64,000 bases of DNA, taken from Planctomycetaceae bacterium (lineage in GTDB: Bacteria; Planctomycetota; Planctomycetia; Planctomycetales; Planctomycetaceae). This document shows, in pieces, positions 30,352-35,631 of this stretch. Both the position numbers and the translations under genes were made by a program. The stretch's first letter is position 1; each line of letters starts with the position of its first letter. Under the pieces are notes generated by a model that was given only the letters and a program-made list of their open reading frames with translations, made no database searches and was not told the DNA's origin. The stretch lies in NCBI GenBank assembly GCA_021732845.1, contig JAKFUF010000008.1:1-64000 (forward strand), written 5' to 3'.

Positions 30352-31830
30352 ATGCTCTGTATCGCCGTGGCTCCCGAGTCCCGCCAGTTGGGCAGAGTGG
30401 ACTTGTTCAATGCCTCAATGCTTGCCGACATCATTGAGCTGCGGCTGGACCGGCTGCACAAGGAACCAGACATCAAGGAGATGCTGGAAGGGGTCAGCAA
30501 GCCGATCCTGATTTCCTGCCGGCGGAAATCCGACGGCGGGGCGTGGGAAGGCAGCGAAGACGAGCGGATGACGCTGCTGCGGCAGGGAATTCTCGCCGGC
30601 CCGGCCTATGTCGAGCTGGAATTGGACGTGGCCGACAAGGTGCCGCGCTTCGGCAAGACCCAGCGCGTCGTCAGCTATACCCAAATGCAAAAGCCACTCT
30701 CGGGATTGGAGCCGATCTTGGAGCAGGCGGCCAAGGCCAAGGCCGACGTGGTGAAGCTGGTCGGCCCCACGCCCACGCTCGATGCCGCCTGGCCGCTGCT
30801 GGCGACGGTCACCAAAAAGCGGACGCTGCCTGTGGTGGGCATGGGACTCGGCCGACCGGGCACGACTTTCTCGCTGCTGGGCCGCCGGTATGGCGCACCC
30901 TGGATCTATGCCGCGCTGGAGAAGGGGCTGGAGGCGTATGAAGGTCAGTCCACGGTGACGGAACTTGATGAAGTCTATCACTGGAAGGCGATCAACACGC
31001 AGACGAAGTTCATCGCCGTAACCGGCTTCGACGAGTGTGCCACGCTGCGGGTGAAGGTGCTGAATGCCGGGTTCGCGCATCATCAGATGAACACCCGCTG
31101 CCTGCCTTTGGAACTGGGGATCAGTGAGAAGATCGGCCAGATGCTGGACGCGCTGCATTGCCCGGTGATCGTTGGCAACCCGCGGATGGGCGAGCGGATG
31201 CTGAACCTCGCTTCGGATATTGAAGAGCCCGCGCGCGTCGCCCAATACTCCGATCTCGTCGTCAAACAGAAGGACAGTTGGCATGCGCTCAACACGCTGT
31301 GGCGGGCCACGCTGCGCTCCATTGAAACGGCACTGGGTGCCAAAACCGCCGAGGACCGACCGCTCGACAAGCGCAATGTGTTCGTGATCGGCGCTGGCGG
31401 ACCCGCCAAAGGCGTGGCTTACGGAATCCAAAAGCGCAAGGGGATGATCAGCATCACCGCCGCCGACAACAGCGAGGCCCAAATGGCCGCCTCACAGTTC
31501 GGTGCCCGCTTCGTGCCCATCGCCAACATGTATGACACGCTGTGTGATGTCGTCGTCATCACGGAAGCCTACTCCATGGATGAAGGCGACGCTGCCCTGG
31601 GCGTGCGGCTCAATCCCAGCTTCCTCCGCCCACACATGCTGGTCACCGACCTCAGCCGCCTGCCACTCGAAACCAACCTCGTCCGGGAAGCCCGCCTGCG
31701 TGGCTGCAAACTCCTGGACCCCCGCGCGGTCTTCTGCGAGCACATGCAGTCGGTGTTCAAGACCATCAGCGGGAAGGAGCTGCCACTGGATGTGGCGATG
31801 GGGGCGCTGGGCGAGCCACAGGTGGGATGA
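30352..31830 (+). CDS. AroD-AroE-like fusion with altered active sites in both halves
   Basis: The 492-residue protein joins a type I 3-dehydroquinate dehydratase-like domain (1-215) to a shikimate dehydrogenase-like domain (220-480). The first half keeps Ile-Glu-Leu-Arg-Leu-Asp (28-33) and the Schiff-base lysine in Val-Val-Lys-Leu-Val (Lys135). However, the catalytic histidine expected in Ser-Tyr-His is Thr110 (Ser-Tyr-Thr-Gln-Met). The second half keeps the nucleotide-binding Gly-Ala-Gly-Gly-Pro-Ala-Lys-Gly (347-354), but the shikimate-binding Ser-Leu-Ser-Pro-x-x-His-Asn is replaced by Asp-Glu-Cys-Ala-Thr-Leu-Arg-Val (about 227-234). The catalytic lysine of Asn-Val-Thr-Val-Pro-Phe-Lys is not found either. 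The start has a ttgaggt ribosome site. Whether it works in the shikimate pathway or has another role is open. Confidence 0.88.
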   Translation: MLCIAVAPESRQLGRVDLFNASMLADIIELRLDRLHKEPDIKEMLEGVSKPILISCRRKSDGGAWEGSEDERMTLLRQGILAGPAYVELELDVADKVPRFGKTQRVVSYTQMQKPLSGLEPILEQAAKAKADVVKLVGPTPTLDAAWPLLATVTKKRTLPVVGMGLGRPGTTFSLLGRRYGAPWIYAALEKGLEAYEGQSTVTELDEVYHWKAINTQTKFIAVTGFDECATLRVKVLNAGFAHHQMNTRCLPLELGISEKIGQMLDALHCPVIVGNPRMGERMLNLASDIEEPARVAQYSDLVVKQKDSWHALNTLWRATLRSIETALGAKTAEDRPLDKRNVFVIGAGGPAKGVAYGIQKRKGMISITAADNSEAQMAASQFGARFVPIANMYDTLCDVVVITEAYSMDEGDAALGVRLNPSFLRPHMLVTDLSRLPLETNLVREARLRGCKLLDPRAVFCEHMQSVFKTISGKELPLDVAMGALGEPQVG

Positions 31831-31939
31831 AACGGGGCGATTTTCGACATGTCCTTCCCAAATCCACGAAGCAGGGAGGGGTGATGGCCGCCTGGCTGGG
31901 GAAAAGTGCAGGGTCGTCCAATCACTCCGCGCCTGGGCT

Positions 31940-31958
31940 CGAGTCACGGAGTGACTCG
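31940..31958. repeat. Copy 1 of the GAGTCAC palindrome
   Basis: cgagtcac-gga-gtgactcg forms an 8-base stem with a 3-base loop and is followed by tcgactttgtag. The same stem plus similar flanks occurs at 35140-35158, and in reverse orientation at 34955-34973. Confidence 0.75.
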
Positions 31959-31965
31959 TCGACTT

Positions 31966-32058
31966 TGTAGCGGCTGGGCGCAAGCCCTCCGGTGAACGGT
32001 CACGACCGCCCGGAGCGCCGGAAATCCATCACCGGACGGCTCGCGCCGCGCCGCTACA
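31966..32058. repeat. Inverted repeat of 93 bases, 30-base arms
   Basis: The arm 31966-31995 (tgtagcggctgggcg...) and the reverse complement of 32029-32058 agree at 26 of 30 positions. The loop is about 33 bases and contains a second G/C-rich pairing. One arm of the same family occurs alone at 1849-1877. Confidence 0.75.
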
Positions 32059-32435
32059 GGAGCGCGGACGAACCATCCCGACCCCACCGAGTTCACCGCG
32101 GTGGTCAACGGGCCTTCGCACTACGCCGCGCGTGCCGACACACCGACATTCACGGGATCAACGACCATTGCACGCGGGAGCCTGGGCATAACGCTGAAAC
32201 CACCTTCGAGAACGAAGCTGCGGAGAACATTTTGCCAAAGATAATTGACGATTGGATCCAAAGTCTATAAACAATAGGTGGCACACTCCTCTTGCACCTT
32301 TCACTCCTATTGCACACTCCTATTGGGGGGGCACACCTCTGCTAATGGTGCTTGGAATCCGTAAGGTACTGAATACACCTTCACGATCTTTCTTCGCCGC
32401 AAACGTATCCGGCGCGAAACAGGGAAAGAGGCAGT

Positions 32436-33479
32436 ATGACTAGCAGGTTTGTCCGCCGCGCGGCGATTTTCATTCTGCTTATGGCAATGTGCCTCGGCTG
32501 CGTTCCCCAAGCCCCCTCGGGATCGACCTCGTCCGGTGACAAGTGGAAGTCGGACTACACGGAGTATCATCGCCTTCTCAATGAGGAAGCAGCCGACGCC
32601 TTGTCGGTTGCGCTGTATAATGGCCAACCAAAGACCAATCGAAAGCTGACGTCGGACGCCGCAGGGCTGAACGTCTATGCCGAACAGGTTGGAGCTGGTG
32701 TGATTCCTCGAACCATTGGGTTAATGCACTTGCACGATCAGGCGACGGTTACCTGGAATGCAAAATTCAATGGGTTCAAGAAGCCTGCCGAAATCGATTT
32801 CGACCTGCCCACGCTTGGCATGCCATTTGAGACCCAATCCTTCCGTTGCGCAAAAGAATTGATCCCGCATTGGAACTCCGTCCCGCGGGGGACGATGGTC
32901 GTTTTTCAGGGAAAGATCAGCATATTCCCCGGCCGCGAGTCTCCAAACGTTCCCTATCGCGGAATCACGAACAGCAACAATCACATCGTACACTTCTGGA
33001 CGCTGAGCGACGTTCGTCCGATCGACGTTCCAGATGGCAGCGGCGGAGAAACGCTGTCGCGCGAGATCAGCGAAGCTTACGATTCGCTATGGAACGCCGC
33101 CGATCAATTCAGGAGAGGAGGCGACTTTGAGCTTCTGGACCGTTTTCTGGAAAGCGACAAAAGCCTCGGAACGCGCACCGTCGTCGGGCAGCATCGGCCC
33201 CCCGTCGTGGGGGCTTATATCGATCCCGAGCATTCCGCCACCACCATCGTGAAGGAGTTGATACGCAACGGTAACCAAACTCATCCAACCAAGAATTGGA
33301 TGCTCCGCGCCGTCGCCATCCAAACGGTCGTCCTGGACCGCACACGGACGGAAGAGTTTTCCGAGAAAGCCGTAACTGATCTCTTGGCTGCCGTGGCGAA
33401 TCGGGATGGCGAATCCGACGAGTTGCGCTCGATCGCTCGACGGGCGCTCGAACTGCTTGCGAAAAATCCGGCAAATTAA
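32436..33479 (+). CDS. Predicted lipoprotein of unknown function
   Basis: The 347-residue protein has a lipoprotein signal: basic start, hydrophobic core, and Met-Cys-Leu-Gly-Cys with the lipidated cysteine at residue 25. The mature part starts with a Ser/Pro-rich linker and is otherwise a soluble domain with no family I recognise. Its middle carries an ordered stretch (Thr-Val-Thr-Trp-Asn-Ala-Lys-Phe-Asn) that looks like beta strands, and the last 90 residues are helical, resembling HEAT-like pairs. The ATG is well placed after gaaagaggc. It stands isolated in the repeat-rich island, just upstream of a duplicated aroDE tail. Confidence 0.75.
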   Translation: MTSRFVRRAAIFILLMAMCLGCVPQAPSGSTSSGDKWKSDYTEYHRLLNEEAADALSVALYNGQPKTNRKLTSDAAGLNVYAEQVGAGVIPRTIGLMHLHDQATVTWNAKFNGFKKPAEIDFDLPTLGMPFETQSFRCAKELIPHWNSVPRGTMVVFQGKISIFPGRESPNVPYRGITNSNNHIVHFWTLSDVRPIDVPDGSGGETLSREISEAYDSLWNAADQFRRGGDFELLDRFLESDKSLGTRTVVGQHRPPVVGAYIDPEHSATTIVKELIRNGNQTHPTKNWMLRAVAIQTVVLDRTRTEEFSEKAVTDLLAAVANRDGESDELRSIARRALELLAKNPAN

Positions 33480-33499: not shown

Positions 33500-33556
33500 G
33501 AGGAACTGCCGCTGGAGGTGGCGATGGGGGCGCTGGGAGAGCCACTGGAGGGATGA
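33500..33556 (+). pseudogene. Duplicated 3' end of the aroDE-like gene
   Basis: These 57 bases match the last 57 bases of the aroDE-like gene (31774-31830) at 50 positions, without gaps and including the TGA stop. The encoded end reads Glu-Leu-Pro-Leu-Glu-Val-Ala-Met-Gly-Ala-Leu-Gly-Glu-Pro-Leu-Glu-Gly, against Glu-Leu-Pro-Leu-Asp-Val-Ala-Met-Gly-Ala-Leu-Gly-Glu-Pro-Gln-Val-Gly in the gene. The differences fall partly at third codon positions. Sequence before it does not continue the match, so this is a leftover of a duplication or of a second, lost gene copy. Confidence 0.8.
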
Positions 33557-33598
33557 TCAAGCGGTAGAACCCAACGCGTGGTTCTGGCAGGGTCAGAG

Positions 33599-33901
33599 GT
33601 GCCGCTGGGCTGGGCCTCGAACCGTGGTTGCCTGCCGCTGACCCAGTCCGAATACCTGCAACTGCTCGACTAGACCGGCCGCCAGATCCGCCGCGACAAG
33701 CGCGGGAACATCCCTCCCAACCTCGCCCCGATCGTTCTGCGTCTGGGCATCCACGCCGACTAGTGGCTGCACCTGGTCTCGCACTACGGCAAGCTCTTTC
33801 GCTCCGCCGCCGGCCGCCCCGCCAGCCTGGAGGAAGAAGCCACGCGCCGGGAAAAGCGCTGGCTTCAAGGCAGCGCGTGGGCGCGACAGGTCTTCGCGTA
33901 G
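33599..33901 (+). pseudogene. C-terminal remnant of a REP-associated-type transposase
   Basis: One frame runs for 101 codons to TAG 33899-33901, interrupted by TAG at 33671-33673 and at 33761-33763. The reading matches the C-terminal part of a planctomycete protein family that I recall as Y1/REP-associated transposase-like: Leu-Gln-Leu-Leu-Asp-(stop)-Thr-Gly-Arg-Gln, Asp-Lys-Arg-Gly-Asn-Ile-Pro-Pro-Asn-Leu-Ala-Pro-Ile, Leu-Phe-Arg-Ser-Ala-Ala-Gly-Arg-Pro-Ala-Ser and Arg-Trp-Leu-Gln-Gly. The first stop fits TGG to TAG at a conserved Trp. The N-terminal catalytic part is absent, so the remnant cannot move DNA. The family assignment is from memory and should be checked. Confidence 0.65.
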
Positions 33902-34081: not shown

Positions 34082-34110
34082 TTGACATGCATTCCGGCCG
34101 GCGGTACAAT
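34082..34110 (+). promoter_or_regulatory. Near-consensus sigma-70 promoter
   Basis: TTGACA (34082-34087) and TACAAT (34105-34110) are separated by exactly 17 bases. This differs from the vegetative consensus by one base in the -10 box. Transcription would begin near 34117, about 40 bases before the ATG at 34158. Such a strong match is rare in this window and implies constitutive expression of the two genes that follow. Confidence 0.7.
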
Positions 34111-34157
34111 TATTGGATCGAGCGTACATCATTCGACAGGATCTGAGGCAGACGGCC

Positions 34158-35012
34158 ATGAGCGGTTGCACTTCCCATGAGAGAGCGGATGCGGGCGTTT
34201 CCCTGGAACAGCAGGTGGCGGAGGGGCGCGGGCGGAAGCAGCGCAGCGACTGCAAGGTGACCGATGCGCAGATCTATGCAGCGATCGTCTCGAACATGGG
34301 AGTCGTGACGTATGCGGCTGTCGCTCTGGGGATCCTCCGGCCGACGCTTTACCGGCGGATCGAGCGCGCGCCGCAACTGAAGGCGTGTCTGGGCGCGGCG
34401 CGGGCGGTGATGGTCCGCATCGCCTGGGAGCAGCTCGACAAGGCACTGGACGCCAGTGCCCGCTGGGCGGTCATTTTCGTTTTCAGCCGCATGCATGGGG
34501 TCCCGATCACGCCACGCTCCTGGCCGAGTGAGTCGTACTCCGCCGAGACTTCGGGGGCTCCGGCACGGCGGAAGCCACGGACTCCACTCGTGGCTCAACC
34601 CGACGCGGCCGACGCGTCGACGCTGCGGCTGGTTCTGGCCCTCGAGAACGGCGAGCCATGGGCGATCAAGTATTGCCTGAGCCACCTGGACCCGAACGGG
34701 CCTTGTGGCGTCAACCAGGTTCGCGGAAGGAATGATGATTCCGCAGCGGAACCCGCCGAGTCGCTGACTGAGGACGATGAGGATCCGCCGGAAGAGATCG
34801 ATCCTGAAGTAGACGCTCACGACCATGAGGTGGCGTCCGGCCATGCCCAGCAGCGCCATGCCATGCTGACGGGCAGGATTCAGCCGCCGCCCGCGCCGCC
34901 TGTCTTGGACGCGGCCCCGCAGACCAGCGCGAACTCCGGGAGTTGCAAAGTAGCCGAGTCACTCCGTGACTCGAACTCGTCCATGAACCGGACGCCGCGG
35001 AGTTCCGGTTGA
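34158..35012 (+). CDS. Unknown protein with Fis-like helix-turn-helix and disordered, repeat-bearing tail
   Basis: The 284-residue product has a basic patch (Gly-Arg-Gly-Arg-Lys-Gln-Arg) and a helix-turn-helix at about 48-70 (Thr-Tyr-Ala-Ala-Val-Ala-Leu-Gly-Ile-Leu-Arg-Pro-Thr-Leu-Tyr-Arg-Arg-Ile), like Fis or phage small-terminase DNA-binding domains. Two similar helical units follow (Leu-Asp-Lys-Ala-Leu-Asp-Ala-Ser-Ala-Arg-Trp-Ala-Val-Ile and Leu-Ala-Leu-Glu-Asn-Gly-Glu-Pro-Trp-Ala-Ile). The last 90 residues are acidic and Pro/Ala-rich, and contain translated palindrome copy 2. The start at 34158 follows the promoter; an in-frame TTG lies at 34113. The stop overlaps the start of the next gene (TGATG). 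DNA binding is likely, but the role is unknown. Confidence 0.65.
   Translation: MSGCTSHERADAGVSLEQQVAEGRGRKQRSDCKVTDAQIYAAIVSNMGVVTYAAVALGILRPTLYRRIERAPQLKACLGAARAVMVRIAWEQLDKALDASARWAVIFVFSRMHGVPITPRSWPSESYSAETSGAPARRKPRTPLVAQPDAADASTLRLVLALENGEPWAIKYCLSHLDPNGPCGVNQVRGRNDDSAAEPAESLTEDDEDPPEEIDPEVDAHDHEVASGHAQQRHAMLTGRIQPPPAPPVLDAAPQTSANSGSCKVAESLRDSNSSMNRTPRSSG
34955..34973. repeat. Copy 2 of the GAGTCAC palindrome, inside a coding frame
   Basis: cgagtcac-tcc-gtgactcg, in reverse orientation compared with copies 1 and 3, lies in the 3' part of the HTH-protein gene and is translated in frame as part of its disordered tail. Confidence 0.75.
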
Positions 35013-35491
35013 TGACCGAACAAGCGTCGCAACCACCAGCCGCGCCGCCTGTCTTGGAAGCGGAACCGCAGGCCGACGGACCATCAAAGACGGCGGAGGC
35101 GCGTCGGAGTGCGTCTACCGGCGTGAACGGGGCGGGGTTCGAGTCACGGAGTGACTCGTCTACTTTGTCACGCGCCACGCAGGAACATCCTGACGGAATC
35201 GTCGCCAGACGTTCGCGTTCTTTTGCGGAGAAAGAGCCGATATTACGCCACCCGAACGGCAACGCTGGCGGCGCGGAGCAGGCCGCGCCGCCTATCCCAG
35301 GCGACGATCGTGACGACGAAGAAACCGACGAACTGTTCCGGCAGATTCGGGAGATGGCGCTCGCGTTTCAGGCCGCGGCCGCGCCGCCTGTCGCCGGGCG
35401 CGCGCCTGTCCAGAAGCCCGATATCGATGAGTTCCGGCGGCTCCTCGAACGGGGAAGAGCCCGCCTGCCACCCGCGCCGCCTGTCACCTAA
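35012..35491 (+). CDS. Unknown low-complexity protein coupled to the HTH protein
   Basis: The 159-residue frame starts at an ATG that shares its first base with the previous stop (TGATG), a classical coupled start. The product is Pro/Ala/Glu/Arg-rich with little predicted fold, except a possible helix Leu-Phe-Arg-Gln-Ile-Arg-Glu-Met-Ala-Leu-Ala-Phe-Gln. It repeats the phrase Ala-Pro-Pro-Val or a close variant about four times, which follows DNA copies of gcgccgcctgtc at 35043, 35285, 35381 and 35474, with one more at 34893 in the upstream gene. It also contains translated palindrome copy 3. I recognise no family. It could be a tail that was once continuous with the upstream protein. Confidence 0.5.
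   Translation: MTEQASQPPAAPPVLEAEPQADGPSKTAEARRSASTGVNGAGFESRSDSSTLSRATQEHPDGIVARRSRSFAEKEPILRHPNGNAGGAEQAAPPIPGDDRDDEETDELFRQIREMALAFQAAAAPPVAGRAPVQKPDIDEFRRLLERGRARLPPAPPVT
35140..35158. repeat. Copy 3 of the GAGTCAC palindrome, inside a coding frame
   Basis: cgagtcac-gga-gtgactcg followed by tctactttgtc, matching copy 1 (31940-31958) in stem, loop and most of the flank. It is read in frame in the 35012 gene. Confidence 0.75.
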
Positions 35492-35497
35492 ATAGCC

Positions 35498-35580
35498 TTG
35501 CGTGATTCCGGGACACTGGCAGTGGAGCCAGAGCGAGCGCCAGCAAGTGGCTTCACGACAGGTGTCCCGAAATCACGCAA
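35498..35580. repeat. Dispersed 83-base inverted-repeat element, copy A
   Basis: The arms 35498-35515 (ttgcgtgattccgggaca) and 35563-35580 pair at 17 of 18 positions. A related element lies at 54649-54732, and the internal sequences also align (cagt..agcc.gag, cgccagc, tcacgac). It sits between two convergent genes and may also terminate transcription, but homology of the middle makes a mobile-repeat origin more likely. Confidence 0.75.
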
Positions 35581-35631
35581 AACTATATAGGTGCCGGAGG
35601 ACTCCCAGTTTGCCATTTGTTTTCCCGCCTC

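Follow-up and report, generated by a model that had tools for sequence, protein, structure and literature searches.

A probable frameshifted member of a dispersed, genome-specific family of small-terminase-like, putative DNA-binding proteins in a planctomycete

The gene at positions 34082 to 35491 of the window (the whole stretch of 64,000 nucleotides that was analysed) is read here, with a probability of roughly 0.6, as one frameshifted copy in a family of about 60 dispersed genes for DNA-binding proteins, specific to this genome, captured from a phage small-terminase (TerS)-like gene and with tails varied by cassettes. Large recent multigene families are rare in bacteria. If true, a bacterial genome would here have a new means of multiplying and varying a DNA-binding protein, on the fold of a phage packaging protein; the novelty would lie in the dispersal of bare promoter-plus-gene units and in cassette tails joined at a fixed DNA word. 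The sequence-only reading had put the region forward as a candidate undescribed system, and a search of the literature on planctomycetes for such a family found no description. The features of the gene are:

34082..34110, plus strand: sigma-70-type promoter TTGACA-17-TACAAT, then the conserved leader element GTACAT; conserved before most paralogues.
34158..35012, plus strand: frame 1 of the gene (ATG 34158 to TGA 35012), TerS-like HTH core and start of the modular tail, 284 aa.
34251..34484, plus strand: HTH and first WA-helix motif; these residues, 32-109, share homology with phage small-terminase-like proteins (hhalign A1 against A2, probability 99.1, E 7.9e-19).
34617..34697, plus strand: second WA-helix motif (STLRLVLALENGEPWAIKYCLSHLDPNG), from alignment A1; kept in most subfamilies.
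34980..34990, plus strand: 1-nt deletion (frameshift) relative to paralogues C150, C38 and C31; alignment gap near 34985.
35009..35491, plus strand: frame 2, displaced remainder of the modular tail (the 'partner' of the sequence-only reading).

The near-consensus promoter with a 17-base spacer proposed earlier is present and matches the consensus at 11 of 12 positions. One promoter-like site of such quality was found against 0.5 expected in shuffles, which alone is weak and not significant; TTGAC, a -10 hexamer some 17 bp further along and then a GTACAT-type leader are kept at the same position 5' of most paralogues, in several subfamilies. The true start is placed at ATG 34158 because a sister copy has TAG upstream of this ATG; TTG 34113 is unsupported as a start on the same ground. 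A Fis-like HTH protein with a dedicated promoter holds up as a reading, and the protein is predicted to bind DNA; the Pfam HTH_8 match of the window protein (E 1e-3) is below cut-off, and that of subfamily 3 is above it. An AlphaFold2 model from the single window sequence was unusable (pLDDT 40). No solved structures were matched by sequence, no catalytic domain was found in the family proteins by Pfam, NCBIfam or PHROGs, and, as in the sequence-only reading, which had recognised no family, no catalogued family was matched.

The two window ORFs are, judged from sequence alignment, one ancestral gene split by a 1-nt deletion. The stop of the HTH ORF (TGA 35010-35012) does overlap the next start (TTG 35009 or ATG 35012; overlap at 35009-35014), as had been described, and two overlapping ORFs joined by TGATG would suit an operon in which one promoter serves a gene for an HTH protein and another for a separate disordered partner. 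However, the same region is a single ORF of 443-755 aa, running across the junction, in paralogues C150, C38, C56, C138 and C23. Furthermore, words 1 and 2 of a recurrent 12-bp word (see below) are spaced 149 bp apart in the window, C78 and C48, which is not a multiple of 3; in the in-frame paralogues of the window's subfamily, word spacings are multiples of 3 until near their ends. Because of this spacing, which together with the 1-nt alignment gap marks a frameshift, and because the paralogues read through as one ORF, ORF 2 is taken as the frameshifted tail of ORF 1, and the two-gene unit is very improbable. The frameshift is also present in C78 and C48; the window copy and these twins would represent a recently converted version with its tail out of frame. 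The product of the window copy would be a 284-aa core protein with a truncated tail, unless the TGATG overlap permits re-initiation of frame 2, which it could.

A search of the own genome (9.25 Mb) with the core profile (A1) gave at least 64 matches at about 58-60 dispersed loci, including fragments; this count is a lower bound, with 150 of 165 candidates scored. A single-protein search of 58 relatives of the same family and class gave no matches, and the A1 profile gave weak single HTH matches only, in 10 of 396 other genomes of the class (up to 8 candidates scored per genome). The family as such is absent from about 400 other genomes of its class, and IMG/VR and INPHARED, searched for a known phage gene, gave no match. 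Clustering yielded subfamilies of 22, 15, 11 (the window's), 4 and 2 genes as well as fragments, with paralogue lengths of 284-755 aa when the 284-aa frame of the window is counted. Contamination or collapsed repeats are an unlikely source of the copies, since the median dS within subfamilies is 0.25-0.77 and the copies lie on many contigs.

Distant homologues of the core are found elsewhere as single-copy genes for proteins of about 120-170 aa. A TerL gene lies directly downstream of the homologue at loci L120, L121, L125 and L127 (the neighbouring TerL genes match Terminase_6N and phrog_38, phrog_4758 and phrog_979), and three of the single-copy homologues match phrog 'terminase small subunit' profiles. 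The sensitive profile search suggested with the sequence-only reading was run with hhalign as a profile-profile comparison of A1 against seven homologues, and it gave E 7.9e-19 over 78 columns (probability 99.1). Since the homologues precede TerL, match TerS phrogs and align at this E value, the family is TerS-like in descent. The own genome contains two TerL genes, which lie in prophage-like regions on C72 and C23; among the loci examined, there is no A1-type gene beside TerL at C72 or C23 and no TerL beside the window gene. Kinship with a phage terminase, an outcome that the sequence-only reading had set against its own proposal, is thus found for the core, which is homologous to proteins encoded just upstream of TerL, but not for the setting, as the copies lie outside prophages. 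The family shares with phage TerS the homologous HTH N-terminus and helix core, with distant relatives directly before TerL, and differs from it in its number of chromosomal copies, about 60, of which none adjoins TerL in the loci examined; phage TerS proteins are of 15-21 kDa, whereas the family proteins have 284-755 aa, two WA-helix motifs and long cassette tails.

The median pairwise dN/dS of the cores was lowest in the 22-gene subfamily (0.08) and higher in the second (0.35) and in the window's (0.39); the tail medians of the same three subfamilies were 0.57-0.71. The core values, taken between paralogues, are well below 1, and therefore the cores are constrained proteins under purifying selection. 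Strong purifying selection on the subfamily 0 core, its basic C-terminal tail (KCSPSPKRKQQK...KKRSHVRRSHS) and the conserved promoters would also be in keeping with host regulators or nucleoid proteins that were expanded by ordinary duplication and regulate nearby genes or compact DNA, with REP arrays merely accumulated; this explanation is possible though doubtful, and the extent of the copied unit bears on it:

34158..35486, plus strand: tract identical to the C78 copy and near-identical to the C48 copy; upstream flanks diverged, downstream flanks unrelated.

This tract extends over about 1.33 kb between the ATG and the last word. It is letter-identical to C78 and has few differing sites against C48; its flanks at C8, C78 and C48 are only about 75% alike upstream and unrelated downstream. 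Such identity with unlike flanks points to recent copying or gene conversion of the CDS. Most pairs in the 22-gene subfamily are similar from a small hairpin followed by Ts, about 102 bp 5' of the ATG, to the stop codon or to 62 bp past it. In the C220/C93 pair, with a core dS of 0.014, contiguous homology does not extend past -140 on one side and about the stop on the other; as neutral flanks would still align at such divergence, the flanks were not copied along. By these comparisons, the copies spread as tracts of their own promoter plus CDS (or CDS only) with sharp edges, many of them located within arrays of REP palindromes, and the unit edges suggest that the copying proceeded by recombination or gene conversion. 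Edges this sharp even at dS 0.014, and identity confined to the CDS at three loci with no common flanks, are unlike tandem or segmental duplication and argue against ordinary duplication. No terminal inverted repeats were noticed at the unit edges (about -102 and the stop codon), and the family carries no transposase domain; in both respects it differs from REP-targeting insertion sequences (e.g. ISPpu9, PMC8450116), with which it shares the occurrence of discrete units dispersed in REP arrays.

The tails of the family proteins are built of cassettes, whose boundaries in the window are marked by the following copies of the 12-bp word:

34893..34904, plus strand: word 1, cassette boundary, GCGCCGCCTGTC.
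35042..35053, plus strand: word 2, cassette boundary.
35285..35296, plus strand: word 3, GCGCCGCCTATC.
35381..35392, plus strand: word 4; C56 has a counterpart of the 96-bp cassette that lies between words 3 and 4.
35474..35485, plus strand: word 5, the 3' edge of the tract common to C78 and C48.

These five copies of GCGCCGCCT(G/A)TC, starting at 34893, 35042, 35285, 35381 and 35474, agree with the earlier count of at least five spaced copies. Tail cassettes across the family are 48-174 bp long and bounded by GCGCC[G/C]CCTGTC. This word, GCGCCSCCTGTC, encodes 95 of the 118 APPV motifs of the tails against 1.03 expected from the codon use of the same ORFs (p about 1e-171 under independence, with related sites treated as independent), and CCT makes up 125 of 147 proline codons at the word versus 8% of proline codons elsewhere. 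Exact GCGCCGCCTGTC copies in the sampled loci lie inside family ORFs in 79 of 87 cases, and none was found in 400 kb of control DNA; subfamily 3 is without the word. Word spacings are 171 bp six times in C138, 171/174 bp and then 96 and 93 bp in C56, 96 and 93 bp in the window, and alternately 105 and 78 bp in C155. Local similarity between paralogues begins or ends within 8 bp of a word in 57% of cases, against 20% at random. The identity between C150 and C138/C23 is higher in the tail cassettes (about 84%) than in the cores (74-75%), and therefore cassettes move between genes. The constancy of the word may reflect the common descent of the cassettes rather than a function of the word. Of the earlier proposal of a tail rebuilt by repeat insertions, the repeat-built tail stands; the repeats are not simple insertions, however, but duplicated cassettes with the word at their boundaries. 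Rickettsia palindromic elements and PARCEL are similar in that palindromic repeats are read in frame and in that tandem repeat cassettes, in ORFs of unknown function, are shuffled within genomes (PMC2996958); here, in contrast, a 12-bp word that is not palindromic forms the boundary, and every carrier is a TerS-like HTH protein. The ORF at L004 (G000 C150) contains an in-frame palindromic repeat (EGEAPAEP...ARGSAGASPS) that is also present in the planctomycete loci L124 and L125. Subfamily 3 (G000 C63, C58 and C1; L086-L089) has the repeated tail motif GAQSL/GAQSQ instead of APPV, and dense REP clusters lie downstream of two of its genes.

REP palindromes and another inverted repeat are found in and near the gene:

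31904..32137, plus strand: REP-array fragment (palindrome 31941-31958); the arrays immediately 5' of the C78 and C48 copies are homologous to it.
34955..34972, minus strand: 18-bp REP palindrome inside the coding frame (VAESLRDSN).
35141..35158, plus strand: 18-bp REP palindrome inside the coding frame.
35485..35593, no strand: 109-bp near-perfect inverted repeat just 3' of the gene, predicted fold -60 kcal/mol.

The palindromes noted earlier within both frames correspond to the 18-bp copies at 34955 and 35141, and the window contains three such copies versus 0.01 expected. The palindrome, GAGTCACGGAGTGACTCG, has 295 exact strand matches in the own genome and none in 39 relatives. Its density near family genes is 125 sites per 300 kb versus 2 per 400 kb of control DNA (83-fold); most of these sites precede genes of the 22-gene subfamily and belong to arrays of hairpin-rich units of about 430-480 bp, and subfamily 1 (15 genes) is mostly without them. 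The 18-mer is common in other planctomycete genomes, where a family gene is present at 0 of 93 such loci and in 0 of 13 such genomes; the palindrome is therefore a planctomycete REP-like element rather than a partner private to the HTH family. The sharing of this element with named planctomycete genomes is also the ground on which the host is taken for a planctomycete. Its role as a private binding site or mobilised partner of the family is correspondingly weakened, also by its absence from most of subfamily 1. The in-gene palindrome is an older REP element, common to several paralogues and to unrelated planctomycetes, and REP-like elements of this kind are possibly moved by RAYT-like transposases. 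The transposase remnant noticed earlier proved to be the broken C-terminus of a REP-associated Y1/RAYT-like transposase (33590-33898), of which the genome has four full-length copies (C5, C26 twice, C39). The HTH proteins of the family gave no match to Y1_Tnp or REP_Tyr_transpos and lack the Y1 (HUH) fold and motif; such transposases are separate genes. As in REPIN/RAYT systems (PMC3116915), REP palindromes, often in inverted pairs, are clustered around a gene family, and the genome has RAYT-like transposases, with a relic of one in the window; unlike in those systems, the clustered gene is not a Y1/HUH transposase, it has many copies whereas each kind of RAYT has one, and the palindrome also occurs in other genomes without the gene.

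The following course of events would account for the family. An ancestral phage terS-like gene would have entered the chromosome by capture, become separated from TerL and gained a tail; it would then have been multiplied by recombination or gene conversion, with REP arrays outside and 12-bp words inside the genes as homology. Cassettes have been gained, lost and exchanged with edges at the word. Most probably, oligomers of the protein bind DNA via the HTH, and the protein serves as a chromosomal DNA-binding factor that possibly binds repeats in or beside its own genes; the tail may be a variable linker or interaction region.

A selfish mobile gene, in which the TerS-like protein drives the copying or packaging of its own unit through the intragenic words in a pac-like manner, perhaps with the TerL of a resident prophage, would explain the copy number and sharp edges, and words that are intragenic and constant at the DNA level; the genome has two TerL genes, and phage P22 carries its pac site inside terS (PMC9611059). 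Set against it, the copies have no nuclease, recombinase or TerL linked to them, both prophages lie at other places in the genome, neither target duplications nor empty sites were noticed, and subfamily 3 is without the word, so that we consider it improbable. The fuller claim of a self-spreading gene, whose protein recognises its own 12-bp words and drives copying, conversion or packaging of the unit to about 60 copies without a linked transposase, is quite improbable. With the P22 precedent, pac-like self-recognition is testable, but unlikely on present evidence. Under the preferred reading of a captured and dispersed family, a small-terminase-like protein working outside phages and a short intragenic DNA word driving cassette shuffling would become testable.

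Other repeats were observed in the window and the sampled loci. The 109-bp inverted repeat is dispersed and MITE-like, with diverged copies beside the C150, C38 and C31 family genes and once in control DNA. The last codons (31780-31830) of a dehydroquinase-type gene (30352-31830) recur at about 33515-33555 (33510-33560); the REP fragment and an ORF without assigned function (32436-33479) lie in between. At L033 4000-6700 (G000 C6), near-tandem hairpin-rich units of 482-484 bp are present with no family gene nearby; Rfam gave no match at the gathering cut-off on the REP arrays, and a weak match to YrlA (Y RNA-like), below cut-off, at L033 6948-7090. The control loci L091-L110 contain a second abundant palindromic repeat (TAACAAGCGGTTCAACCCGCGTGTGCCGC), which is unrelated to the HTH family.
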